A stretch of DNA of 49,815 bases. It comes from Paludibacteraceae bacterium. Lineage in GTDB: Bacteria; Bacteroidota; Bacteroidia; Bacteroidales; Paludibacteraceae. Numbering within the stretch: the first letter of the stretch is position 1; every line of letters begins with the position of its first letter. The translations under genes were made by a program, and so were the position numbers. Shown in pieces: positions 18,362 through 45,346 of this stretch. Under the pieces are notes generated by a model, which searched no databases, had not been told where the DNA came from, and saw only the letters and a list, made by a program, of their open reading frames with translations. The stretch spans positions 1 to 49,815 of the forward strand of contig JAFRNH010000048.1 of assembly GCA_017430235.1 (NCBI GenBank). Direction: 5' to 3'.

Positions 18362-20305
18362 TTATCTCAAAATCAACTTTTTCATAAGTGTGTTATTCTG
18401 AGAGACGACTTGAACAAAATAGACACCATGAACCAGATTACTCAAATTCAATTCTGCATATTCTTCTTCATACGTATTTTTATAAACAATCTCACCTCTA
18501 GCGTTAATGACAGACAAGTGTTTTTCTCCATCCATGTTTTCGAATGCTATAGAGACCACTCCATCTGACGGATTAGGATATAGTTGCATATCACTCTCTG
18601 CCAGTGGATCTTCATCCATATTTACATACTCAATTTGTTCTCTATTAACATATTCATATTCAAACTCGTCTTGTTGTAGTTCTCCACTTCTTGTTGACGA
18701 ACTTGTACATACTAACTTATCCGCTTTGAATTTCGAATCTGATTGTGATACACGGAAACCTTTTTTCAAGATAATTTTATCATATGCCTGTAAACGTATC
18801 TTAGAATTTGTGATTTTGCAATTGGCTGTCAAATTATGTCCTGCCATATATGTATAATAATCATTCTGACCCATATTACTAATAGTCGTCGTAAGATTCA
18901 AACATTTTGCAGGTGCACGAGAACGTCCGCATCTATAATCACAGCCAACAGTTTCATCTACTGTTTGATAATTACCCAACTGACCAACGACTAGCCAATA
19001 CGAAGAGTTTTCCGAAAAAACATCTACAGTTTCTTCTCCATAATCGACACCTCCGAATGACCAATACTGTGCCACATCATCTGGATGCGCATCTTTTGAA
19101 TATTGGAAAGCTTCCACCATAGTAATTTCTCCATCATCGTCAGTATCTGCATTTACAGTTTTTTTGTTAATAAAGTCATAGCCAGAAATCGCACATGCCC
19201 ATTTGTATGCAAAAGGATTATAATAGGTATAGCCTACTGACGTCTCCTTTCTATGTGCAGCCGTCGCAATTGTTATTTTTTGACCCAATTCCTCTATCGG
19301 ATGTATGAAACATCCACTATAACACTGTTCCATAACAATATCAATTGGAGCCTTTATTCCCTTTAACATTGTAGCAAAATCCGACATTGTTAAGATATTA
19401 AAATCCCATAGATATAAACCATTTCCAACTCCCGCATCATCACAACTTCCATGATCTGTAGTGAAAATATACAAATGATCTTCTTCCTTCAAAGTGTTTT
19501 TTAACTGAGAAAAACAATTGTTCAGCGAATTGAAAGACGCATCACCACTGATGTCATCATTTCCATCGGCGTCCAAATCAGTTGGAGAATCGATGTAGTC
19601 CTCTGGTTTATAAAAAGTTTCGGGATTAGTTCCTAAATGAAGATCATGTGCTGTATCAAGTCCATCCGACATATACACATATATATTCTCCCTCGGGATA
19701 CTATATAATCTCCTTAGTATTTGGTAGAGGATAGAACAATCATTCCAATATCTAACATGATTATTGTCGGCATTTGCTCCTCCACTGATAATCACCGCAT
19801 ACGATTTTCCTTTTCTGTCCTTAGTAACTCTCGAACCTGCTGTCACACTAGAATACAAATTAGGTAATACCAATCCATTTTCATCTGTATATGATTGCTG
19901 GCTCACTTTATTCGTAGCCGACTTATTTACAGCGTTATTCTCAATTTTCGTATACGAACTCGACTTCCAATTTTTCATTCCTTTTGGAGGTATATATTTA
20001 ATAGTCGATTTCACCTTGCCGGTTGATGCCGTCACATATATATATATACAAGGATGTCCCCAATTTGCTTTCGGAGCCTTATCCACAAAAAAGCACCAAC
20101 AATCTTCAGATAGGGAAATTTTTCTATTCCCTGCCATCTCTATTGTCCTGGTTTTTGTAGGATAATACATAAATGTATACTCTGATGGCAAACTCCCCTT
20201 TACGTAATTGTATGCCTTCTCCATTGCAGCAGACTGTGTCACAGCCGCATACATTCCAGATGCATACAAGAGGAAGGAAAAAAACAATAATACTAATTTT
20301 TTCAT
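18362..20305 (-). CDS. Secreted C13 (legumain-like) cysteine peptidase with T9SS sorting domain
   Basis: A 647-residue protein with a signal peptide (ends GMYAA). After about 145 residues of N-terminal domain comes a caspase/legumain-like fold: SYAVIISGGANADNNHVRYWNDC, then HLYIFTTDHGS with H285, then IDIVMEQCYSGCF with C328, the expected His/Cys dyad 43 residues apart. VGYTYYNPFAYKWACA follows. The C-terminus is a T9SS type A domain (MQLYPNPSDGVVSIAF ... LVHGVYFVQVV). The segment GANADNNHVRYWND supports C13 rather than C25. It is likely exported and anchored by the PorU/PorV system. It follows the 20319-21233 gene by 13 bases. Confidence 0.85.
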   Translation of the reverse strand: MKKLVLLFFSFLLYASGMYAAVTQSAAMEKAYNYVKGSLPSEYTFMYYPTKTRTIEMAGNRKISLSEDCWCFFVDKAPKANWGHPCIYIYVTASTGKVKSTIKYIPPKGMKNWKSSSYTKIENNAVNKSATNKVSQQSYTDENGLVLPNLYSSVTAGSRVTKDRKGKSYAVIISGGANADNNHVRYWNDCSILYQILRRLYSIPRENIYVYMSDGLDTAHDLHLGTNPETFYKPEDYIDSPTDLDADGNDDISGDASFNSLNNCFSQLKNTLKEEDHLYIFTTDHGSCDDAGVGNGLYLWDFNILTMSDFATMLKGIKAPIDIVMEQCYSGCFIHPIEELGQKITIATAAHRKETSVGYTYYNPFAYKWACAISGYDFINKKTVNADTDDDGEITMVEAFQYSKDAHPDDVAQYWSFGGVDYGEETVDVFSENSSYWLVVGQLGNYQTVDETVGCDYRCGRSRAPAKCLNLTTTISNMGQNDYYTYMAGHNLTANCKITNSKIRLQAYDKIILKKGFRVSQSDSKFKADKLVCTSSSTRSGELQQDEFEYEYVNREQIEYVNMDEDPLAESDMQLYPNPSDGVVSIAFENMDGEKHLSVINARGEIVYKNTYEEEYAELNLSNLVHGVYFVQVVSQNNTLMKKLILR

Positions 20306-29251: not shown

Positions 29252-31255
29252 ATGAAAAAACAAATCATCTTAATTATTCTTTTTCTCATTGGTTGCTGCC
29301 TATCAGCTCAATCATTAGACAAACAAGAATCCGAATCTGTAAAGAAACAAGTTATAGCCGAATGGAAATCGCAGATGTCCAACCTTTATGACGATGCTTA
29401 TAAAGAGCACATCATCAGACGCGATGGGTTGGAATTGGCATTGGCATACATCATCAGAGGTTCAGAACCTACAGGAGGACGCAGTTTATGGATATCCATG
29501 CATGGTGGTGGAAATGCTCCTAAAGAGACAAACGACCAACAGTGGGAGAATCAAATATACCTTTACGAACCTCAAGGTATATACGTGGCTCCTAGAGCTC
29601 CATGGGATGATTGGGATATGTGGTTCAAAGCTCCTATCGACTCTCTGTTTCAAGACTTAATCACAATGATGATTGTCAAAGAGAACATCAATCCTGACAA
29701 AGTATACCTCTTAGGCTATTCCGCTGGTGGTGACGGTGTTTGGCGATTGGCTCCTCGTCTTGCGGATCACTGGGCTGCTGCCTCTATGATGGCTGGTCAC
29801 CCTGGAGATGTCGGTCTTCGCAACCTAATCAACACCCCATTCACTATCTGGGTAGGTGCTCTCGACTCTGCCTACGACCGCAACAAGGAGGTAGAAAAAA
29901 GAGGTTACGAAATGGACTCTCTCAGTCAGACCGTTCCTGGAAAATACATCCACCAAAACAATATTGTTGCTGGGAAAAGTCACTGGATGGACCAAGTGGA
30001 CACTGCTGCTATCAGTTGGATGAATCGATACACGCGCGACGCTCACCCTAAACAGATTATCTGGACACAAGAGGAATGTTTACGTGACGCATTCTACTGG
30101 GTCTCTCTCCCCTCCTCCATCAAACCAGTTCGTGGCAACACTTTTGAAGCAGAGATTGAAGGCAATACCATCACAATCGACAAGATGGACTACGACGAGG
30201 TGACAATCTGGTTGGACGATGACATGCTAGACCTTTCTCAACCTGTTACCATTCAATACGATGGAAGGACACTATTCAAACAAGTGGTGGAAAGAACGGA
30301 GGAAAGCATGAAGCAATCCATCTATGAACGAAAAGACCCTTCGTTCTGTTTCCCTGCTAATGTAACCATCTCAAAAGAGATGACCTACGAAGAAGAGGAA
30401 CCTGTGGAGAGAATCGCCTGCGACACCACATGGTTCACTGGCGAAGGTACTCAGTATGGTGGTATTGCAGGTACCAATGGAGGAAACTGCGGCATTTTCG
30501 TAGAAGAGGGGGATTTCTATCATTGCGCCATGAATCACATTCAATATGACAGTAGCTACGCATGTGGAGCCTGTGTAAAAGTCTACGGACCTATTGGAGA
30601 AATCACAGTAAAAGTGGTGGATCGCTGTCCTGAATGCAAAATGGGTGACATTGATTTCTCAACCGATGCCTTCACCACCATCGCCAAACTGGAAGATGGA
30701 CGAGTACCTATCAGATGGCAGTTTGTACCATGCCAAGAAGACAAGAACATCAAAGTGATGTTTGAAAAAGGAACAAGTCCGTTCTACTTCAAAGCAATAT
30801 TTTACGACATAAGACACAGAATAAAAAGTCTAGAATACAAACGTTCTGATGGCTCCTTCGTTCCAATTCATCGTGAAATGTACAACTACTTTGTAGCACA
30901 GCAAGGTATAGATGAAGACCCATCCAAATGCGGACCTTACACATTCAGATTGACCGACGAGCACGGTGGCGTTGTCTATGTAGAGAATGTACAGTATGAA
31001 GCAGGTGTTGAAATAGACTTAGGCAAGCAATTTCCAAAAGCCAATTGTGGAGAAGATAGTGCAGTAGACGAAATCGAGAATTCCCTATTATGGAGTGATG
31101 ATATTTTGCGAATCGAAGCATACGATTTATTAGGACACACCATCTACTCCACCAATCAACGAGACGAATACCTGAAATTTGCTCAAGAGTGGAATCGTAT
31201 TCACATTATAAAGATATACTTCGAGAAATTCAGCAGAGTGGAATTACGGAAATAA
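29252..31255 (+). CDS. Secreted fusion of an alpha/beta-hydrolase (esterase) and an expansin-like module
   Basis: A 667-residue protein with a signal peptide (ends CLSAQS). Residues about 60-270 are an alpha/beta-hydrolase of the PHB-depolymerase/feruloyl-esterase type: SLWISMHGGG for the oxyanion side and VYLLGYSAGGDG with nucleophile S157. Residues about 390-495 are an expansin double-psi beta-barrel: CGNxG-like GGNCGIF, ACGACVKVYG, and KVVDRCPECKMGDIDFS with D457 and D468, 11 apart as in bacterial expansin EXLX1. Residues about 495-605 look like the second expansin domain (CBM63 fold). The C-terminal 60 residues resemble a worn T9SS sorting domain (IEAYDLLGHTIYS). It probably loosens and de-esterifies plant or algal wall polymers. 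Confidence 0.85.
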   Translation: MKKQIILIILFLIGCCLSAQSLDKQESESVKKQVIAEWKSQMSNLYDDAYKEHIIRRDGLELALAYIIRGSEPTGGRSLWISMHGGGNAPKETNDQQWENQIYLYEPQGIYVAPRAPWDDWDMWFKAPIDSLFQDLITMMIVKENINPDKVYLLGYSAGGDGVWRLAPRLADHWAAASMMAGHPGDVGLRNLINTPFTIWVGALDSAYDRNKEVEKRGYEMDSLSQTVPGKYIHQNNIVAGKSHWMDQVDTAAISWMNRYTRDAHPKQIIWTQEECLRDAFYWVSLPSSIKPVRGNTFEAEIEGNTITIDKMDYDEVTIWLDDDMLDLSQPVTIQYDGRTLFKQVVERTEESMKQSIYERKDPSFCFPANVTISKEMTYEEEEPVERIACDTTWFTGEGTQYGGIAGTNGGNCGIFVEEGDFYHCAMNHIQYDSSYACGACVKVYGPIGEITVKVVDRCPECKMGDIDFSTDAFTTIAKLEDGRVPIRWQFVPCQEDKNIKVMFEKGTSPFYFKAIFYDIRHRIKSLEYKRSDGSFVPIHREMYNYFVAQQGIDEDPSKCGPYTFRLTDEHGGVVYVENVQYEAGVEIDLGKQFPKANCGEDSAVDEIENSLLWSDDILRIEAYDLLGHTIYSTNQRDEYLKFAQEWNRIHIIKIYFEKFSRVELRK

Positions 31256-31909: not shown

Positions 31910-32965
31910 ATGAAAGCTAGAATCATTATTGCAAGTGTTGTGTGTTGTTTGACTCTTCAATCGCACGCACAAGAAAGTTGGAAACTCATATGGAATGACG
32001 AATTTGATTACAACGGAGCACCGGATAATTCAAAATGGTCGTTTGACACAGAAGGGAATAATTGGAACTGGGGAAATGACGAGCAACAAAATTACACCCC
32101 AGAAGAAATGAAAAACGCATGGGTAGAAAATGGCAATTTGATCATTGAAGCCCGAAAAGAGAGCTATAGGTGGTATGGAGATGGAGAAACAAAGAACTAC
32201 ACATCTGCCCGTCTTCGCACTTACAGAAAAGGAGATTGGTGTTATTGTAAGATTGAAGTTCGTGCATTACTTCCAGAAGGGAAAGGCATGTGGCCAGCCA
32301 TTTGGTTGTTGCCAACAGATGAAGTATACGGAGGATGGCCCCAGAGTGGCGAGTTGGACATCATGGAGAATGTAGGATTTGATCCAAGCAGAATACATTG
32401 TAACATCCACACCGAAGCTTACAACCATAAAAACGGAACCAATAAAGGTAATTCCGTTAACGTCTCCCTACCACACGATAATTGGCATGTCTATCGTATT
32501 GAATGGGATGCAGAAAGCATCAACTATTACGTAGATGACACACATGTTTTCACATTCCAAAACGAACACAGAACCTGGAAAGAGTGGCCATTTGATCAAA
32601 AATTTCACTTGCTTCTCAACATTGCCGTTGGTGGAAGCTGGGGAGGTGAACAAGGAATCGAAGATTGGAGACTTCCTCAAAGAATGCTTGTAGACTACGT
32701 GAGAGTTTATGAAAAATCAGGTATGTCATCAATGGATGATGAAATAGCAAATACAGTAAAAGTATATCCATCTTTAGCAGAAGAGACCATTAGCATTAGC
32801 GGACTAACCACTAGCGAGCAAATTCAAATCATATCCATCAATGGAAATGTGATTATGGAAGCTAAAGTTGACGCTGACGACAACACGCTCAATGTAGACG
32901 GATTGTCACAAGGCAAGTATCTTGTAAGAATTGGCAATTCAACATATCCATTCATAAAGAAATAA
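31910..32965 (+). CDS. GH16 beta-glucanase with T9SS sorting domain
   Basis: A 351-residue protein with a signal peptide (ends QSHAQ). Residues about 22-265 are a GH16 jelly roll: WKLIWNDEFDYNGAPDNSKW, SARLRTYRKGDWCYCKIEVRALLPEGKGMWPAIWLLP, and GELDIMENVG, the E-x-D-x-x-E motif with E148, D150 and E153. HLLLNIAVGGSWGG closes the fold. The uninterrupted ExDxxE spacing fits laminarinase or lichenase subfamilies. The last about 75 residues are a T9SS type A domain (VKVYPSLAEETISISG ... LSQGKYLVRIGN). It is likely surface-bound and acts with the neighbouring esterase-expansin on beta-glucans. Confidence 0.93.
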   Translation: MKARIIIASVVCCLTLQSHAQESWKLIWNDEFDYNGAPDNSKWSFDTEGNNWNWGNDEQQNYTPEEMKNAWVENGNLIIEARKESYRWYGDGETKNYTSARLRTYRKGDWCYCKIEVRALLPEGKGMWPAIWLLPTDEVYGGWPQSGELDIMENVGFDPSRIHCNIHTEAYNHKNGTNKGNSVNVSLPHDNWHVYRIEWDAESINYYVDDTHVFTFQNEHRTWKEWPFDQKFHLLLNIAVGGSWGGEQGIEDWRLPQRMLVDYVRVYEKSGMSSMDDEIANTVKVYPSLAEETISISGLTTSEQIQIISINGNVIMEAKVDADDNTLNVDGLSQGKYLVRIGNSTYPFIKK

Positions 32966-37044: not shown

Positions 37045-40000
37045 ATGAGAAAAACTTTTTTATTCTGGATTATATTTATAGTAGGGCTTTTTCAAATCAC
37101 ACCTTCATTCTCCTACGACTTCAAATCTGAGTCTGTTCTTGCCTCCGGCAACTGGGTCAAAATCAGAGTGAAGGAGACAGGATTGTGCAAACTCACATAC
37201 GACCAACTAAAACAAATGGGATTCAAAAACCCAGCTGAAGTACGCATATTTGGATATGGTGGTAACGTTTTAAGCGAAACTGTTTCTGACAGCAGTAAAA
37301 TAGACGACTTAAACGAACTACCCATCTATCAAGGCAATAACTTCCTCCTGTTTTACGCTCGAGGTCCTAAAAACTGGTATCATAAAAAAAATTCGTTAAC
37401 CTACGAATACGATTATAGCATCAACACCTACTCCAACTACGGTTACTATTTTCTATCAGACAACGTAGGATCAAAAAGAAGAATAGCGACAAATGAAAGC
37501 CATATTTCTTTGTCGGACACCATGGACGTACACACCTACCAAGAGAGACAGATTTTAAAAAATGAAGAATTCAACTATGTCTCATCTGGTAAAGTTTGGT
37601 ACGGTGACAAATTTTACAACAACAGCTCCTTCTCCACGTCGTTCAACTTTCCAAACATCGACACCACTCAGGAGGCATCCATTTTAGCAAGAATTGCTAC
37701 AACATCCAAAGCAAAATCCACCATCAATTTATCATACGAGTTTGGAAACACATATCTTAACGAATCTGTTGAATACCCTATTTGCTCAGGCCATCTTGTT
37801 GCAAACGAAATCGCAAAATGGAAGTACGCAAAACCTTCTGGTTCTCGCATCTCCGTTTCTGCTACATTCAAAGGATATGACATTTCTGATTACGCATCCA
37901 TAGAACGCATCATTGCTTTGGCTTACCAATCATTGGATATGAAATCATCCAACACTCTCTTCTTCAGAAATCCATCTTGCAACGATGCAAACAAAAATTA
38001 CCGCTTTATATTGGATAATTGTCCTTCTGAAATTCAAATATGGGACATCACCAACCCTATAGAGCCTCAACAACTCGTAACAGAACGTACCGACAACAAA
38101 GTTTCATTTGTCAGCACCTTCGAAGGAACTCCTCATGAATATGTTGCTTTCAACACAAATAATCCAAAGACAATCTCCGCAGAATTTGTCTCCACTGTTG
38201 CCAATCAAAACTTGCACGCAGAGCAGCCTGTCGACCTTGTCATCATCACGCACCCTAATTTCATGTCTGGTGCCACCGAAATCGCTAATATTCACGAAGA
38301 ATACGACAATTTCAGCACGCTCATCACCACGCAAGAAAAAATTTACAATGAGTTTTCTTCTGGAACACCTGATGCAACGGCTATTCGATGGTTTATGAAG
38401 AAACTCTATCAAGAGAATGGAGAAAAGCCTTTCTTCCTTCTTTTAATTGGTGACGGATGTTTTGACAACAGAGGTATATTAACAAGCAGCGGAACAAAAG
38501 TCAACAATCTCATGATCACCTATCAGGGAGGAAGTTCAACCGAGGAATCTGCTTCGTATGTAACCGATGATTATTTCTGCTTCCTTTCCGACAAAAACTT
38601 ATCAAATGGGGATGCAAGAATGGGAATCTCCGTAGGTCGTATACCTTGCAACTCGGTAGATGGTCTTAACGCTGTTATCAAAAAAATAAAGAAACACATC
38701 GAGAATAAAGACTACGGAAAGTGGAAAAACAAAATTTTGTTATTGGCGGATGACAACGAAGCATCAAATGATTATAACAAATTCTGTCGCTACTCAGATG
38801 GCATTGCCAAAAAGGTCCAAGCCCACAACAACGCCATGGAAATAAAGAAAGTGTACCTCGATGCCTACACGAGGACAACAGGATCCAATGGTAGCCGTTA
38901 TTATGAGGTGGAGAACATCATCAAAGAGGAAATAGACAAAGGAATTATGTTCTTCAATTACATCGGACATAGTAGCAAAATTGGTTTCACTGCAGAACAT
39001 GTATTCACACAAAATCAAGCACGCTCCATTTATAACGACAGATGTGGATTCTGGTTCACCGCCAGTTGTGAATTTGCTCAATATGATGGTTTGGACATCT
39101 CCGGAGGAGAAGATCTTCTGCTTAATCCTAATGGAGGTGCACTCGTTCTGTTGAGTTCCGCCAGAGTAGCATACGACAACAAAAACGACAATCTAAATCA
39201 AGTGCTTTTCACAAAAATGTTCTTAAGAGACGAAGATGGATTGCCTTTACGCATTGGTGAAATCACTAGACTAGCCAAATACTCGTTGAACAATGATTCT
39301 AACAAATTAGCTTTCACCCTTTTCGGAGATCCTGCTCTACGTCTTTGCTATCCTAACAACAAAATATTGACAGACTCCATCGTAGAAATCAATGGCAATC
39401 CAACCGATACATTAAAAGCACTCTCCGAAATTACAGTGTATGGGCACATTGCAGACAACGACTCTGTCTTCTTGCCAGACTTTAATGGCACCCTATATGT
39501 TACCTTGTATGATAAAGAGGTGACACTCTATACCAAGGGAAATATCTATACGGACAAAGAACAAATCATCCAAAACAGACATCAGTATACTGATCGTCCT
39601 AACATTCTTTTCTCCGGACAAGTTGAAGTAACCAATGGAGAATTCTCATTCCTAATGAAAATTCCAAAAGATATTAACTACAGCTACGGAGAAGGTCGTC
39701 TCGCCTACTACGCATTCGATGAAGAAAAAGATTACGAAGCACAAGGTGCATACGAACAATTCCTTATCGGAGGCAGTTGCGATAACATTGACTACGAGAC
39801 AGACGGGCCTAGCGTCTCCCTCTACATAAACACGAAAGATTTTGTCTCTGGGGACAAGGTGAACTCATCGCCCGTATTCTACGCCAATTTGTTCGATGAA
39901 AGTGGTATCAACGCATCTGGATGCGGAATCGGTCACGACATCACACTGACACTGAATGGATCTAAGGAACCTATCATACTCAACAACTACTTCTCTTATT

Positions 40001-40452
40001 CCAAAGACAGCTACAAGAAGGGAAGCGTTGTTTATCAACTGACAAACTTAGAAAATGGCACGTATACACTGACATTCAAAGCTTGGGACTTGATGAACAA
40101 CTCCACGACCAAAAGCATTCAATTTGTTGTCGACAATGAAATGGATATCGAAGTGGAAGATCTGATTATCTACCCTAATCCTGCTAAGGATAACGTAACA
40201 TTGAAAGTTATTCATGACCAACCGCAAACCATCCAATCTTTCCGATTCATATTGTATGACATCAATGGAAGAATCGTATACAAGTCGGATGACATCACTT
40301 CTAAAAATGATGGACAATTCTCATGGACGTGGGATCTATGCGCACAGTCTGGAAGAAGAATTGATGCGGGAAGCTACATAGGAAGAGCTGAAATCAAAAT
40401 CAACGGTAAAGAATACGTGGGTAAATCGAAAAAACTAATCATTTTACCTTAG
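37045..40452 (+). CDS. porU: T9SS C-terminal signal peptidase PorU (copy 1)
   Basis: A 1135-residue protein with signal peptide (ends SFSY). The N-terminal part (residues 25-390) has WVKIRVKETGLCKLTYDQLKQMGF, usual for PorU. Residues about 395-770 are a gingipain-like C25 peptidase: VDLVIITHPNFM, LLLIGDGCFDNR, VGRIPC, FFNYIGHSSKIGF with H642 and FTASCEFAQYDG with C675, then GGEDLLLNPNGGALVLL. The end is a type A sorting domain (IIYPNPAKDNVTLKV, Y1043). PorU cuts off cargo sorting domains and attaches anionic LPS. A possible -7 box TAAATTTG (37029-37036) would give an almost leaderless mRNA; read-through from the FAH gene is the alternative. Confidence 0.92.
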   Translation: MRKTFLFWIIFIVGLFQITPSFSYDFKSESVLASGNWVKIRVKETGLCKLTYDQLKQMGFKNPAEVRIFGYGGNVLSETVSDSSKIDDLNELPIYQGNNFLLFYARGPKNWYHKKNSLTYEYDYSINTYSNYGYYFLSDNVGSKRRIATNESHISLSDTMDVHTYQERQILKNEEFNYVSSGKVWYGDKFYNNSSFSTSFNFPNIDTTQEASILARIATTSKAKSTINLSYEFGNTYLNESVEYPICSGHLVANEIAKWKYAKPSGSRISVSATFKGYDISDYASIERIIALAYQSLDMKSSNTLFFRNPSCNDANKNYRFILDNCPSEIQIWDITNPIEPQQLVTERTDNKVSFVSTFEGTPHEYVAFNTNNPKTISAEFVSTVANQNLHAEQPVDLVIITHPNFMSGATEIANIHEEYDNFSTLITTQEKIYNEFSSGTPDATAIRWFMKKLYQENGEKPFFLLLIGDGCFDNRGILTSSGTKVNNLMITYQGGSSTEESASYVTDDYFCFLSDKNLSNGDARMGISVGRIPCNSVDGLNAVIKKIKKHIENKDYGKWKNKILLLADDNEASNDYNKFCRYSDGIAKKVQAHNNAMEIKKVYLDAYTRTTGSNGSRYYEVENIIKEEIDKGIMFFNYIGHSSKIGFTAEHVFTQNQARSIYNDRCGFWFTASCEFAQYDGLDISGGEDLLLNPNGGALVLLSSARVAYDNKNDNLNQVLFTKMFLRDEDGLPLRIGEITRLAKYSLNNDSNKLAFTLFGDPALRLCYPNNKILTDSIVEINGNPTDTLKALSEITVYGHIADNDSVFLPDFNGTLYVTLYDKEVTLYTKGNIYTDKEQIIQNRHQYTDRPNILFSGQVEVTNGEFSFLMKIPKDINYSYGEGRLAYYAFDEEKDYEAQGAYEQFLIGGSCDNIDYETDGPSVSLYINTKDFVSGDKVNSSPVFYANLFDESGINASGCGIGHDITLTLNGSKEPIILNNYFSYSKDSYKKGSVVYQLTNLENGTYTLTFKAWDLMNNSTTKSIQFVVDNEMDIEVEDLIIYPNPAKDNVTLKVIHDQPQTIQSFRFILYDINGRIVYKSDDITSKNDGQFSWTWDLCAQSGRRIDAGSYIGRAEIKINGKEYVGKSKKLIILP

Positions 40453-40628: not shown

Positions 40629-43600
40629 ATGAGAAACAATTGTTTTATTTATATCTTACTTATTGTGGGACTTTTACAAGTTTCTCCCTCATTCGCCTAC
40701 AATTTCACCTCACAATCCGTCCTTGCCTCTGGTCATTGGGTTAAAATCAGAGTGAAGGAGACGGGGCTATGCAAACTTTCCTATGAACAACTAAAACAGA
40801 TGGGATTCAAAAATCCAGCCGAAGTATGCATATTTGGCTATGGTGGTAACGTTTTAAGTGAAAACTTTCTCGATAGTAAAACGGACGATCTAAACGAACT
40901 ACCCGTCTATCAAGGCAACAATTTCTTTCTTTTTTACGCTCAAGGACCAAAAAACTGGTACTACAACGAAAATCCGAACGCCAACGAATACGACTATAGC
41001 ATCAACCCCTACTCCAACTATGGTTACTATTTTTTGTCAGACAATGTGGGATCCAAAAGAAGGATAACGAAGAAAGAGCACCAACATTCTTCTCCCGACA
41101 CTATAGACGTAGTCAGCTACCAAGAAAGACTGATTTACAAACATGAGGAATTCAACTACGTCTCATCTGGCACTGTTTGGTATGGAGACAAATTTTATAA
41201 CGATAGCACCTTCTCCACTTCGTTTCACTTTCCAAACATAGACACTACCCAAAACGCATCTATTTTAACTAGAATAGCGGCATCCTCCAATGTGAAATCA
41301 GTTGTCGATTTATCATACAACTTTGGTGGCACGAATCTTATTGATTCTATTACATATCCCAATCGCGCAAAGGATCTCGTTGCCAATGAAGATTCCCAAT
41401 GGAAGGTTTTAAAACCACAGGGATCTGATTTCCGCATTTCTGCCACATATAGAGGAACTAACTTTACCGACTACGCCTCCATAGAACGCATCGTCGTCTT
41501 GGCTTACCAATTATTGGACATGCAATCGACAAACACGCTCTATTTTAGAAACCCTTCCTGCAACATCCCCAACAAAACTTACCGCTACATATTGGACAAC
41601 ACTTCCTCAGAGACTCAAATTTGGGATATTTCCAACCCTATAGAGCCTAAACAAATGACAACAGAACGAAGTGGATCTAAACTTTCCTTTGTCGATACAT
41701 ACGCATCCACTCCATGCGAATATGTAGCTTTCAACATGGATAATCACAACTCTATCACTGCAGAATTTGTATCCTCTGTTACCAACCAAAACCTACATGC
41801 AGAGCAACCTGTCGACTTTGTCATCATCACTCACCCGAACTTCATGTCTGGCGCCATCGAAATTGCTAAGATTCATGAAGAAAACGACAATTTCAGCACT
41901 CTCATCACCACACAAGAAAAGATTTTCAATGAATTCTCATCCGGAACACCCGATGCTTCTGCTATTCGTTGGTTTATGAAAAAACTCTATCAAGAGAATG
42001 GAGAGAAACCCTTCTATCTTCTTTTGATTGGCGACGGTTGTTTTGATAACAGAGCCATTTTAGCAAATGAAAGAACGAGAATCAACAATTTCATCATCAC
42101 CTATCAAGGAGGAAGTAGTGTGGATGAATCCGCCACATACGTAACAGATGATTATTTCAGTTTCCTTTCCGATAATCAGTTGATAAACGAAGGTACGCCC
42201 ATAGACATTACCATTGGGCGCATACCATGTAGCACGATAGAAGAACTTAACGGCTACATTAAAAAGATAAAGAGACATATAGAAAATAAAAACTACGGGA
42301 AATGGAAAAATAAAATCTTGTTATTAGCCGACGATAATGAAACTAGCGTCGATTTTAAAAAATTCTTTCGGCATGCGGATAAGGTTGCAGATGTAATTCA
42401 TGAGCAAAACAATGCCATGGAAGTTAAAAAAATCTACTTTGATTCCTATATAAGGGCAACGGGGGGTAATGGTTACCGTTACCCTGAGGTAGAAGAAATC
42501 ATCAAAGAAGAGATTGACAACGGTGTTATGTTTTTTAACTACATTGGTCATAGTAGTAAGGTCGGATTCTCTGCCGAGCATGTCTTCACACAGAACCAAG
42601 CACACTCCATACGCAATGACAAGTGCGGTCTTTGGTTAGCCTTCAGTTGTGAATTTGCACGTTATGATGATTTGGACCGATCAGGAGGCGAAGATCTCCT
42701 ACTAAATCCGAATGGTGGCGCCCTCGCACTAATTGGCTATTCCAGACTTGCTTACGAAAATTTTTCGGAGAAGCTCAACATAAACTTTTATAAGAACATG
42801 TTTTTAAGAGACTCCGATGGTTTGCCTTTACGTATTGGTGAAATTAATCGGATGACGAAAAACGCGACCACAAAGAATAGCAACAAATTGAGATTAGTCT
42901 TACTAGGCGACCCCGCTCTGCGTCTTTTTTATCCGAGCGACAAAATCTTAACAGACTCTATCACTGAAATCACAGGAGAAAGAACAGATACCATACGAGC
43001 ATTGTCCGAAATCAAAGTATACGGACATATTGCTGACAAGAATTCTGTTTTCATGTCCGATTTCAATGGCACCATACATGTCACCCTATACGACAAAGAG
43101 ATGACGTGTTACACCAAAGGGAATATCAGCCCCGGTATAGCGTATAGCTCTCAATTCAAACACGAGTACAAAGATCGTCCCAATATTCTTTTCTCTGGCA
43201 TGACAGAAGTAACCAACGGAAAGTTTTCCATTCTTATGAAAATACCGAAAGACATCAACTACAGCTACGGAAAAGGTCGTCTCGTCTACTATGCATTCGA
43301 CGAAGAAAACGATTATGAAGCACAAGGAGCATACGAGGATTTCCTTGTCGGAGGCATTTGCGAGAACATTGATTACGAAACAGAAGGTCCAACCATTTCA
43401 CTCTACTTAAACACAAAGGATTTTGTTTCCGGAGACAAAGTAAATTCTTCACCCGTACTCTATGCCAATCTATTTGATGAAAGTGGTATCAACGCATCTG
43501 GGTGCGGAATCGGTCACGACATCACCCTGACACTGAATGGAGCTAAAGAGCCTATCATCCTCAACAACTACTTCTCTTATTACAAAGACAGTTACAAAGA

Positions 43601-44036
43601 AGGAAGTGTTGCTTATCAATTGACAAACTTAGAAAATGGCACGTACACACTCACAGTCAAAGCATGGGATTTGCAAAACAACTCCTCGACCAAGAGCATC
43701 CAGTTTGTTGTCGACGACAAACTGGAAATCGGGATAAAAGATTTGACCATCTATCCAAATCCAGCTACAGATAACGTAACTTTGAAGGTAAGTCATGACC
43801 AACCGCAAACCATCCAATCATTTCGATTCTTATTATACGACATCAATGGGAAAATCGTTTACAAGTCGGATGATATCACATCAAAAAACGATGGACAGAT
43901 ATCATGGACATGGGATTTATGTTCAGAATCTGGAAGAAGAATTGACGCAGGATGTTATATTGGAAGGGTCGAAATTAAGATTAACAACAAAAAATATGTG
44001 GGTAAATCGAAAAAAGTAATCATTTTACCACAATAA
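40629..44036 (+). CDS. porU: T9SS C-terminal signal peptidase PorU paralogue (copy 2)
   Basis: A 1135-residue protein of the same length and domain order as copy 1, with signal peptide (ends SFAY). Catalytic residues are kept: FFNYIGHSSKVGF with H641 and LAFSCEFARYDD with C674, as is the C-terminal sorting domain (TIYPNPATDNVTLKV). The central region differs much more from copy 1 than the last about 200 residues do. It lies 176 bases after copy 1, with a palindrome in between, and 71 bases before porV. Either copy could be the housekeeping PorU; this one is nearer porV, the usual arrangement. Confidence 0.9.
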   Translation: MRNNCFIYILLIVGLLQVSPSFAYNFTSQSVLASGHWVKIRVKETGLCKLSYEQLKQMGFKNPAEVCIFGYGGNVLSENFLDSKTDDLNELPVYQGNNFFLFYAQGPKNWYYNENPNANEYDYSINPYSNYGYYFLSDNVGSKRRITKKEHQHSSPDTIDVVSYQERLIYKHEEFNYVSSGTVWYGDKFYNDSTFSTSFHFPNIDTTQNASILTRIAASSNVKSVVDLSYNFGGTNLIDSITYPNRAKDLVANEDSQWKVLKPQGSDFRISATYRGTNFTDYASIERIVVLAYQLLDMQSTNTLYFRNPSCNIPNKTYRYILDNTSSETQIWDISNPIEPKQMTTERSGSKLSFVDTYASTPCEYVAFNMDNHNSITAEFVSSVTNQNLHAEQPVDFVIITHPNFMSGAIEIAKIHEENDNFSTLITTQEKIFNEFSSGTPDASAIRWFMKKLYQENGEKPFYLLLIGDGCFDNRAILANERTRINNFIITYQGGSSVDESATYVTDDYFSFLSDNQLINEGTPIDITIGRIPCSTIEELNGYIKKIKRHIENKNYGKWKNKILLLADDNETSVDFKKFFRHADKVADVIHEQNNAMEVKKIYFDSYIRATGGNGYRYPEVEEIIKEEIDNGVMFFNYIGHSSKVGFSAEHVFTQNQAHSIRNDKCGLWLAFSCEFARYDDLDRSGGEDLLLNPNGGALALIGYSRLAYENFSEKLNINFYKNMFLRDSDGLPLRIGEINRMTKNATTKNSNKLRLVLLGDPALRLFYPSDKILTDSITEITGERTDTIRALSEIKVYGHIADKNSVFMSDFNGTIHVTLYDKEMTCYTKGNISPGIAYSSQFKHEYKDRPNILFSGMTEVTNGKFSILMKIPKDINYSYGKGRLVYYAFDEENDYEAQGAYEDFLVGGICENIDYETEGPTISLYLNTKDFVSGDKVNSSPVLYANLFDESGINASGCGIGHDITLTLNGAKEPIILNNYFSYYKDSYKEGSVAYQLTNLENGTYTLTVKAWDLQNNSSTKSIQFVVDDKLEIGIKDLTIYPNPATDNVTLKVSHDQPQTIQSFRFLLYDINGKIVYKSDDITSKNDGQISWTWDLCSESGRRIDAGCYIGRVEIKINNKKYVGKSKKVIILPQ

Positions 44037-44107: not shown

Positions 44108-45346
44108 ATGAAAAAGAACAAATTAAAAGCTATTTCGTTAGCAGCGTTATTATCAGCGGGTATTTTTTCATCCGCATTTGCCCAAGTACAGGTTAAAGAT
44201 GATGGTGGAGCAAACTACAATCCACTACAAACCGCAATTCCATTACTTTCTATTTCTCCAGATGCAATTGGAGGTGGTATGGGAGATGTGGGAGCAGCAA
44301 CTGCACCTGATTACAATTCTCAATATTGGAATCCTTCAAAATATGCATTATCACAAAGCAAGGGTGGATTTTCATTGTCATACACTCCATGGTTGAGAAA
44401 GATTGTTGATGATATCGATTTGGTATACCTCGTAGGTTATTACAAACCAACTGAGCGTACAGCTATCGGAGCATCTCTTCGCTACTTTGACATGGGTAAG
44501 ATTAACTTAACAGGAACGCCTGATGCAACAGGAACGCCTCAAGACTTAGGTGTTGCTCAACCTCATGAGTTGGCAATTGATGCTAGTTTCTCTATGCTAT
44601 TATCTGAATATTGGTCAGGTGGTGTTGCTCTTCGCTTCATCTACTCCGACCTTTTCAATGGTATGGACGACGAGGATGAATATTCTAAAGCAAAAGCTTT
44701 TGGCGCTGACCTCTCATTTTCTTACAGAAAACCTGTTCAAATCAACGAGCAAGAGTCAACCGTAGGTTTCGGTGTTGCCATTACAAATATCGGTAATAAG
44801 GTATCTTACGATAACGATGCTACTATGCAATTCATCCCTACTAACTTCCGTATCGGAGGTAGTTTTGAATATGCATTTGACGAGTTCAACCGCCTAGGAA
44901 TCGCAGTAGACTTCAACAAACTATTGGTTCCTACTCCTTATGGTTCTAGAAAACTTTATAACTCAGACGAGGAATATAATGCAGCAAAAGAGCGTTACGA
45001 AGAATGCTCTTCCATTGGAGGTATCTTCCGTTCTTTGGGTGATGCTCCTGGTGGATTCAAAGAGGAAATGAAAGAGTTCAACTTCTCTGTCGGATTGCAA
45101 TACTCGTATGCAAGAAAGTTCATGGTTCGTGGAGGTTACTTCAACGAAAGTGCTGATAAAGGAAACAGAAAATACTTCTCAGTAGGTGCAGGATTCCACT
45201 TGATGATATTTGAATTGAATGCAGCCTATTTGATTTCCATCGCACAAACCAACCCATTGGATAGAACACTTCGTCTATCTCTTGGATTTGACATGGGCGG
45301 TATCAAGTCATTGTTCGGATCTTCCGACCCTGTAGAAGAAGAATAA
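44108..45346 (+). CDS. porV: T9SS outer-membrane protein PorV (LptO)
   Basis: A 412-residue protein with signal peptide (ends SAFAQ). It is a FadL-like beta-barrel with the family start NPLQTAIPLLSISPDAIGGGMGDVGAATAPDYNSQYWNPSKYA, SLSYTPWLRKIVDDIDLVYLVGYYK, and the late strand MVRGGYFNESADKGNRKYFSVGAGF. PorV takes cargo from the SprA/Sov channel and delivers it to PorU for processing and surface attachment. It sits directly after the two porU genes, the classical order in Bacteroidota. Confidence 0.95.
   Translation: MKKNKLKAISLAALLSAGIFSSAFAQVQVKDDGGANYNPLQTAIPLLSISPDAIGGGMGDVGAATAPDYNSQYWNPSKYALSQSKGGFSLSYTPWLRKIVDDIDLVYLVGYYKPTERTAIGASLRYFDMGKINLTGTPDATGTPQDLGVAQPHELAIDASFSMLLSEYWSGGVALRFIYSDLFNGMDDEDEYSKAKAFGADLSFSYRKPVQINEQESTVGFGVAITNIGNKVSYDNDATMQFIPTNFRIGGSFEYAFDEFNRLGIAVDFNKLLVPTPYGSRKLYNSDEEYNAAKERYEECSSIGGIFRSLGDAPGGFKEEMKEFNFSVGLQYSYARKFMVRGGYFNESADKGNRKYFSVGAGFHLMIFELNAAYLISIAQTNPLDRTLRLSLGFDMGGIKSLFGSSDPVEEE

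Follow-up and report, generated by a model that had tools for sequence, protein, structure and literature searches.

Does a gene that appears to join an esterase-type hydrolase to an expansin encode a genuine single protein, and what might such a protein do? We examined this for a locus on a contig of 49,815 nucleotides from a Paludibacteraceae bacterium (assembly GCA_017430235.1, contig JAFRNH010000048.1), referred to here in its entirety as the window. The preliminary description placed the gene correctly at 29252-31255, where the 667-codon frame is open and the G-Y-S157-A-G motif is present. Its layout of hydrolase followed by expansin was borne out, and two modules that it had left unmentioned were added, residues 263-375 and 604-667 (Table 1). 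The first of these is probably a beta-sandwich and showed a below-threshold Pfam match to Glyco_hydro_65C at residues 293-325. At the end of the putative signal peptide, the A-Q pair is kept across 15 aligned sequences. The acidic linker at residues 376-388 is the probable insertion point of an expansin cassette.

Table 1. Coordinates in the window of the fusion gene, its modules and named residues, and one context gene.
Feature	Position	Strand	Basis or remark
Whole fusion gene	29252..31255	+	667-codon open frame, 667 aa; in-frame counterpart in L031, L032, L033
Putative Sec signal peptide, residues 1-19, cleavage before Q20	29252..29308	+	by eye
Alpha/beta-hydrolase domain, residues 51-262	29402..30037	+	conservation; remote matches to LC-Est1C 3wyd and 3doh; weak, mixed Pfam matches across the family
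Ser157, nucleophile (GYSAGG)	29720..29722	+	invariant 70/70
Asp205, triad (inferred role)	29864..29866	+	invariant 70/70
His244, triad (inferred role)	29981..29983	+	invariant 70/70
Second domain of the esterase family, residues 263-375	30038..30376	+	conserved alongside the hydrolase in family members
Variable acidic linker, residues 376-388	30377..30415	+	length varies between fused genes; missing in esterase-only orthologues
Expansin D1, double-psi beta-barrel, residues 389-492	30416..30727	+	NF041144; DPBB_1 over cut-off; PDB expansins
Asp457, equivalent of EXLX1 D71	30620..30622	+	spacing and alignment; invariant 33/33
Asp468, equivalent of EXLX1 D82	30653..30655	+	spacing and alignment; invariant 33/33
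Expansin D2, CBM63-like domain, residues 496-602; aromatic platform F511, Y512, Y544	30737..31057	+	full-length NF041144 match
C-terminal tail, residues 604-667 (64 residues), T9SS-CTD-like, esterase-orthologue type	31061..31252	+	local alignments; local profile match
Context: GH16 glucanase with T9SS type A tail	31910..32965	+	Glyco_hydro_16 81 bits, Por_Secre_tail 31.8 bits (Pfam); also in L031

The window belongs to a genome assembly of 111 contigs that is 88% complete, and the preliminary description had itself raised the possibility of a sequencing error joining two genes. We consider such a sequencing or assembly artefact extremely improbable, because the same in-frame join, with shared gene order to the extent that the contigs allow, recurs in three further MAG contigs (L031, L032 and L033) and because purifying selection operates on either side of the join. 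L031 derives from water buffalo reticulum and L033 from horse faeces, while the L032 contig ends inside the fusion gene. All three carry purF-like, alpha-amylase, T9SS plug, purH-like and small lipoprotein genes upstream, with about 2.5 kb extra between the T9SS-plug gene and purH in L033. Downstream, L031 continues with DUF454, GH16, EF-Ts, S2, S9 and L13 genes; the other two contigs stop earlier. Nei-Gojobori estimates between the window and G704 yielded omega values of 0.018 for the hydrolase, 0.041 for the second domain, 0.012 for the expansin and 0.096 for the tail. Against G708 the synonymous sites were saturated, and pN was 0.074, 0.124, 0.064 and 0.209 for the same four regions. Overall, the hydrolase and expansin halves are both under purifying selection.

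Identification of the esterase half relied on a contig scan for relatives, from which the best 80 of 192 were taken. Fourteen of these 80, from MAGs of Paludibacteraceae or Bacteroidales, are close relatives (81-98% identity); the remaining 66 share 39-55% identity and are recorded as Bacteroidota, Planctomycetes, Verrucomicrobia and others. An alignment of the window with 69 of the 80 fetched loci (A1, which lacks L036, L040, L041, L043, L044 and L091, and from which L045, L058, L086, L090 and L108 were dropped for a stop or N) revealed S157, D205 and H244 in the triad order typical of the family and invariant in all 70 members. Judged by these signatures, the N-terminal half is a Ser-Asp-His alpha/beta-hydrolase of esterase type, as the preliminary description had proposed from the serine motif. 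The window protein reached the cut-off of no hydrolase model in Pfam or NCBIfam. Across the 70 members, Pfam matches at E <=0.01 were distributed over DLH (32), Abhydrolase_3 (15), Peptidase_S9 (8), Abhydrolase_1 (8) and Esterase (7). Membership of the window protein in the CE1-type family (Pfam Esterase, PF00756) was rejected for want of a match, as was membership in the dienelactone hydrolases (DLH, PF01738), for which nothing appeared at E 1. PF00756 scored 18.1-20.9 bits, below its cut-off of 22, in three members fused to GH2 enzymes. The DLH cut-off of 21 bits was narrowly passed by four of ten distant relatives scanned (21.8-26.1 bits), and these matches point to no particular substrate. 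Curated hints below cut-off came from PHB-depolymerase-type models, and among solved structures the esterase profile matched, at E <=0.001, only LC-Est1C (3wyd, E 4.5e-11) and the 380-aa esterase 3doh (E 2e-6). The esterase family is widespread and lacks a specific curated name. The earlier suggestion that the enzyme removes ester cross-links, feruloyl or similar, found no support in these searches: no hydrolase cut-off was reached, the DLH matches are substrate-neutral and the solved relatives are remote. The cross-links were a guess.

Fusion partners and gene neighbours of the relatives provide indirect hints about the substrate. A Pfam scan of ten distant relatives with longer frames identified three (L059, L065 and L070) in which the esterase relative is fused behind a GH2 enzyme, two of them (L059 and L065) recorded as horse-faeces Bacteroidaceae MAGs. 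In five others (L075, L077, L093, L100 and L101; four of the five recorded as Planctomycetes) it lies behind a transglutaminase-like core, accompanied in L093 by a CBM9, and the scan detected no additional domain in L045 or L068. Neighbourhoods of separate esterases of the close group were examined at three loci. A GH5 cellulase with a T9SS tail lies directly upstream of the esterase in L036, a pectate lyase and an NlpC/P60-LysM protein adjoin it in L041, and a glucuronyl esterase and a GH43-like protein adjoin it in L042. Because of the GH2 and CBM9 fusions and the GH5, pectate lyase, glucuronyl esterase and GH43 neighbours, we favour a carbohydrate ester as the probable substrate class. We also searched the 80 esterase loci, with flanks of up to 8 kb or shorter where contigs end, using the expansin profile. 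Expansins appeared in three of the 80, namely the three fusions, so the idea that the two genes are simply neighbours elsewhere was rejected. None of the 66 more distant loci contained an expansin within these flanks, which indicates that the esterase can do without one.

The expansin half is recognized far more directly. NF041144 (NCBIfam) matched residues 397-595 over profile positions 1-194 of 194 with 170.4 bits against a cut-off of 100, Pfam DPBB_1 (PF03330) scored 34.1 bits against 28.8, and the PDB expansins 9ms5 (E 4.8e-29), 7wvr, 4jcw and BsEXLX1 (2bh0, E 4.9e-13) were all retrieved. By profile, residues 389-602 are an expansin with a variant active face. The complete expansin and CBM63-like domain of the preliminary description were therefore recovered by the domain search it had suggested, while the carbohydrate esterase part of that search returned no CE1 match. 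Its comparison of D457 and D468 with EXLX1 also held: the two are 11 residues apart, as are D71 and D82, and both are invariant in all 33 family expansins, the window's included. In a published account of EXLX1, D71, Y73 and D82 are given as essential and W125, W126, Y157 and K119 as binding residues (PMC11040781, accessible portion). The position of Y73 is occupied by C459 here and by Cys in all 33 family expansins, within a D-R-C-P-E-C motif that is likewise invariant (33/33). Aligned chains of 4jcw, 9ms5 and 7wvr have D-x-C at this position too, and we therefore read C459 as marking a D-x-C subtype and not as grounds for exclusion from the expansins. The D2 platform comprises F511, Y512 and Y544 where BsEXLX1 has W, W and Y, and these positions are aromatic in 33/33, 33/33 and 32/33 family expansins, respectively. 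EXLX1 K119 aligns with E505. Within the 33-sequence set, D1 accounts for the majority of invariant expansin positions. Family membership and these residues suggest that the expansin half may loosen cell walls.

Several observations bear on export. PorV scored 389 bits in the window and 184.7 elsewhere in the genome, with none of 14 control genomes over the cut-off, and Por_Secre_tail gave 67 matches over cut-off in the genome. The fusion tail exceeded the cut-off of no curated T9SS model; the best curated tail match in two fused relatives was NF033708, with E values of 0.02 and 0.14. A profile of the esterase-type tail, set against 20 T9SS tails from the window's genome, reached a probability of 69% locally and 12% globally, and standalone-expansin tails gave 95% and 89%. 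A search of the window's own genome with the fusion tail returned only itself as a significant match. Expansins of the FCB superphylum are described as carrying a C-terminal domain recognized by the T9SS (PMC10501053, in the part available), and Bacteroidota expansins of this kind are thus a known system for comparison; the tail of the fusion differs from theirs in being of the esterase-gene type and too divergent for T9SS models. Taken together, these comparisons make T9SS export of the fusion likely. Elsewhere in the window, tandem 1135-aa proteins that are 73% identical (37045-40452 and 40629-44036) stand directly before PorV (44108-45346). In position and sequence they resemble PorU-type T9SS sortases, and a duplicated sortase would be unusual. 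A 647-aa protein at 18362-20305 has a T9SS type A tail and, by eye, the look of a C13-type cysteine protease.

To place the fusion among its relatives, we surveyed 358 genomes of the family, with up to three candidates scored per genome, so that absences are not firm. An expansin of this type was found in 33 of the 358 and a close esterase in 16, all of which are among the 33. Esterase and expansin form one gene in four genomes (G000, G704, G713 and G708), none of which showed an additional expansin or close esterase; the window's own genome likewise yielded no other expansin. The 12 other close-esterase genomes all encode the two as separate genes at two loci, with an esterase 85-90% identical (cut by contig ends in G717 and G722). 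Nearly every listed genome of the genera concerned has the expansin (15 of 16 in g1 and nine of nine in g230), which makes co-occurrence weak evidence by itself. The fusion is a stronger sign of a functional link. Because two genes that are separate in relatives are one here, this link is supported, and the pattern suggests that esterase and expansin work together on plant fibre. Of the secreted Bacteroidales protein with coupled functions that was originally envisaged, the functional link thus gained support from the separate genes of relatives, and the ester cross-links did not. The survey of the architecture in other genomes that had been recommended found the fusion in four genomes of one species clade.

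The tail offers a clue to how the genes were joined. Local alignment of the window tail with four esterase-only tails scored 206-243 at 59-73% identity, compared with 16-64 and 26-39% identity over 6-51 columns for four standalone-expansin tails. As the tail is of the esterase type, the expansin cassette (residues 389-602) appears to have entered an esterase gene just before the tail, and this insertion was probably the route of fusion. A four-marker tree of the 16 genomes with markers united G712 and the fused genomes with support of 100, and the fused genomes without G712 with 96 (codon positions 1+2) or 84 (protein); a two-marker tree of 27 genomes gave 0.33 and 0.73. In the four-marker tree, the four fused genomes are one species clade with G712 as sister. 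Independent fusions were judged unlikely, given this single clade and the common gene order as far as the contigs reach.

G712 itself has a divided arrangement. A 293-aa esterase relic (L158:4054-4935) lies beside purH and the lipoprotein gene and lacks the serine motif, the stretch holding D205 and H244, and the tail. Its standalone expansin (L126:1441-2337), next to EF-Ts, carries an esterase-type tail that aligned with the window tail at a score of 178 and 50% identity. The two halves thus lie next to genes that, in the window, stand on opposite sides of the fusion. Since the expansin has the esterase-type tail and the relic occupies the fusion's place, the simplest account is that G712 probably represents a secondary split of an ancestral fusion, with subsequent decay of the esterase; we do not prefer the alternative of a chimaeric standalone expansin that preceded the fusion. 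Gene trees do not settle the choice between these two accounts. The four fused sequences and G712 form a clade in both expansin trees (0.949 and 91), with G712 outside the four fused expansins at 0.563 in one and within them, closer to the window than G708 is, at 49 in the other. An esterase tree of 18 of 19 sequences (omitting one below 151 aa, by elimination the G712 relic) did not recover the four fused as a clade and grouped G708 with distant outgroup esterases at 0.89, possibly through long-branch attraction; as it stands, this tree counts against a single fusion event. Between the window and G714 (g230), amino acid identity is 89.6% for the hydrolase, 61.0% for EF-Ts and 82.9% for PurH. 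More generally, the hydrolase is 89-91% identical both between genera and within the genus, while EF-Ts falls to 58-61%. High hydrolase similarity across genera alongside low EF-Ts similarity hints at horizontal transfer of the esterase, and strong constraint could also explain it.

From these comparisons we propose, as a reasonably probable reading, that the fusion is a secreted and probably surface-displayed bifunctional protein for plant fibre, comprising a wall-polysaccharide esterase and a loosening expansin, with its origin in a cassette insertion in one clade. The Ser-His-Asp hydrolase would take ester groups off wall polysaccharides, the aromatic face of D2 would hold cellulose or cellulose-bound hemicellulose, and D1, with D457 and D468, would loosen the network without cutting. 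The expansin would keep the esterase on the fibre, exposing substrate both to that enzyme and to nearby glucanases. Such a protein would have arisen in a gut Paludibacteraceae genus when the cassette entered a separate esterase gene upstream of the export tail. The expansin half could alternatively be a targeting module only, whose D2 anchors the esterase on cellulose-rich wall and whose loosening activity has been lost. The Cys in place of Y73, the Phe-Tyr-Tyr platform and the Glu aligned to K119 fit this alternative, as does the tendency of the esterase family to gain other partners, including CBM9 in one relative. We nonetheless think it unlikely, given that D457 and D468 are kept in 33/33 sequences, that D1 contains the majority of invariant expansin positions, that the expansin as a whole has an omega of 0.012 in the comparison with G704, and that the solved expansins 4jcw and 9ms5 also have D-x-C.

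An ester outside the plant wall (a polyester, a peptide-linked ester or part of the cell's own envelope), with the expansin anchoring the protein elsewhere, for example on peptidoglycan, would account for the below-cut-off PHB-depolymerase-type hints, the DLH matches over cut-off in four relatives, the transglutaminase-like domain in five and the NlpC/P60-LysM gene beside the L041 esterase. BsEXLX1 also binds peptidoglycan in vitro (PMC10501053, available part). Such a target seems to us quite improbable in view of the GH2 and CBM9 fusions, the GH5, pectate lyase, glucuronyl esterase and GH43 neighbours, and the origin of two fused contigs in buffalo reticulum and horse faeces. Returning to the plant-fibre reading, we tentatively offer a bolder and rather doubtful form of it, in which the esterases constitute an unrecognised carbohydrate esterase family and the expansin frees or lifts an ester-decorated hemicellulose chain bound to cellulose and passes it to the esterase of the one surface protein, so that de-esterification and non-lytic loosening of the wall would be mechanically coupled. 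If this were true, the fused genomes, the separate-gene genomes and G712 would amount to a natural experiment on the benefit of an expansin to an enzyme. The comparative setting is unusually informative: the fusion and its unfused relatives permit a direct test of whether an expansin aids a wall-modifying enzyme other than a cellulase, and so bear on the role of microbial expansins and on the contacts that they target. They also point to a widespread esterase family in Bacteroidota, Planctomycetes and Verrucomicrobia, and offer a tool ready for use in processing fibre.

Comparison with known systems indicates that the parts are familiar. EXLX1-type expansins (BsEXLX1 YoaJ, 4jcw, 9ms5) share the D1 double-psi barrel, the CBM63-like D2, the D71/D82 equivalents and NF041144, whereas the fusion has Cys for Y73 and F-Y-Y for W-W-Y and carries its expansin inside an esterase. 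LC-Est1C (3wyd) and 3doh/3doi share the alpha/beta-hydrolase with its serine motif, but are remote, leave the domain at 263-375 unmatched and have no expansin. GH5-CBM2-expansin fusions (CelA of Clavibacter michiganensis; Xanthomonas) also place a catalytic domain N-terminal to the expansin (PMC5072189 and PMC11040781, in the portions available); here the partner is an esterase-type hydrolase instead of a glucanase, in a gut Bacteroidales clade whose relatives retain separate genes. The dockerin-bearing CclEXL1/2 of Clostridium (Acetivibrio) clariflavum likewise bring expansin together with esterases and glucanases (PMC12484212 and PMC12037645, accessible sections), in a non-covalent cellulosome assembly as opposed to one polypeptide. 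Known expansin fusions are listed with GH5, carbohydrate- or chitin-binding domains, dockerin and discoidin, none of them an esterase (PMC5072189, available text), and additional domains are put at <1% of sequences, mainly CBM2 or GH5 (PMC11040781, available text). The term 'esterase' is absent from the main text of both papers, to the extent that this text was available. Full-text literature searches, whose partial coverage does not establish priority, returned no title or abstract opening describing an esterase-expansin fusion. Going by the literature covered, the natural esterase-expansin fusion is a new combination of known parts.

Among evenly drawn genomes, the NF041144 cut-off was exceeded in 2 of 393 from the order and 4 of 395 from the phylum, the window's own genome being counted in both, and many of the matches below the cut-off are short D1-like stretches. 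No esterase was found in frame with the expansin at L002 and L250-L252, which cover three of the four other such genomes (G993 excepted). Another genome of the phylum, G799, carries tandem expansins (L251:2916-4563) and a third (L250:1388-2728) with a long C-terminal extension, in which the W-W-Y platform is kept.
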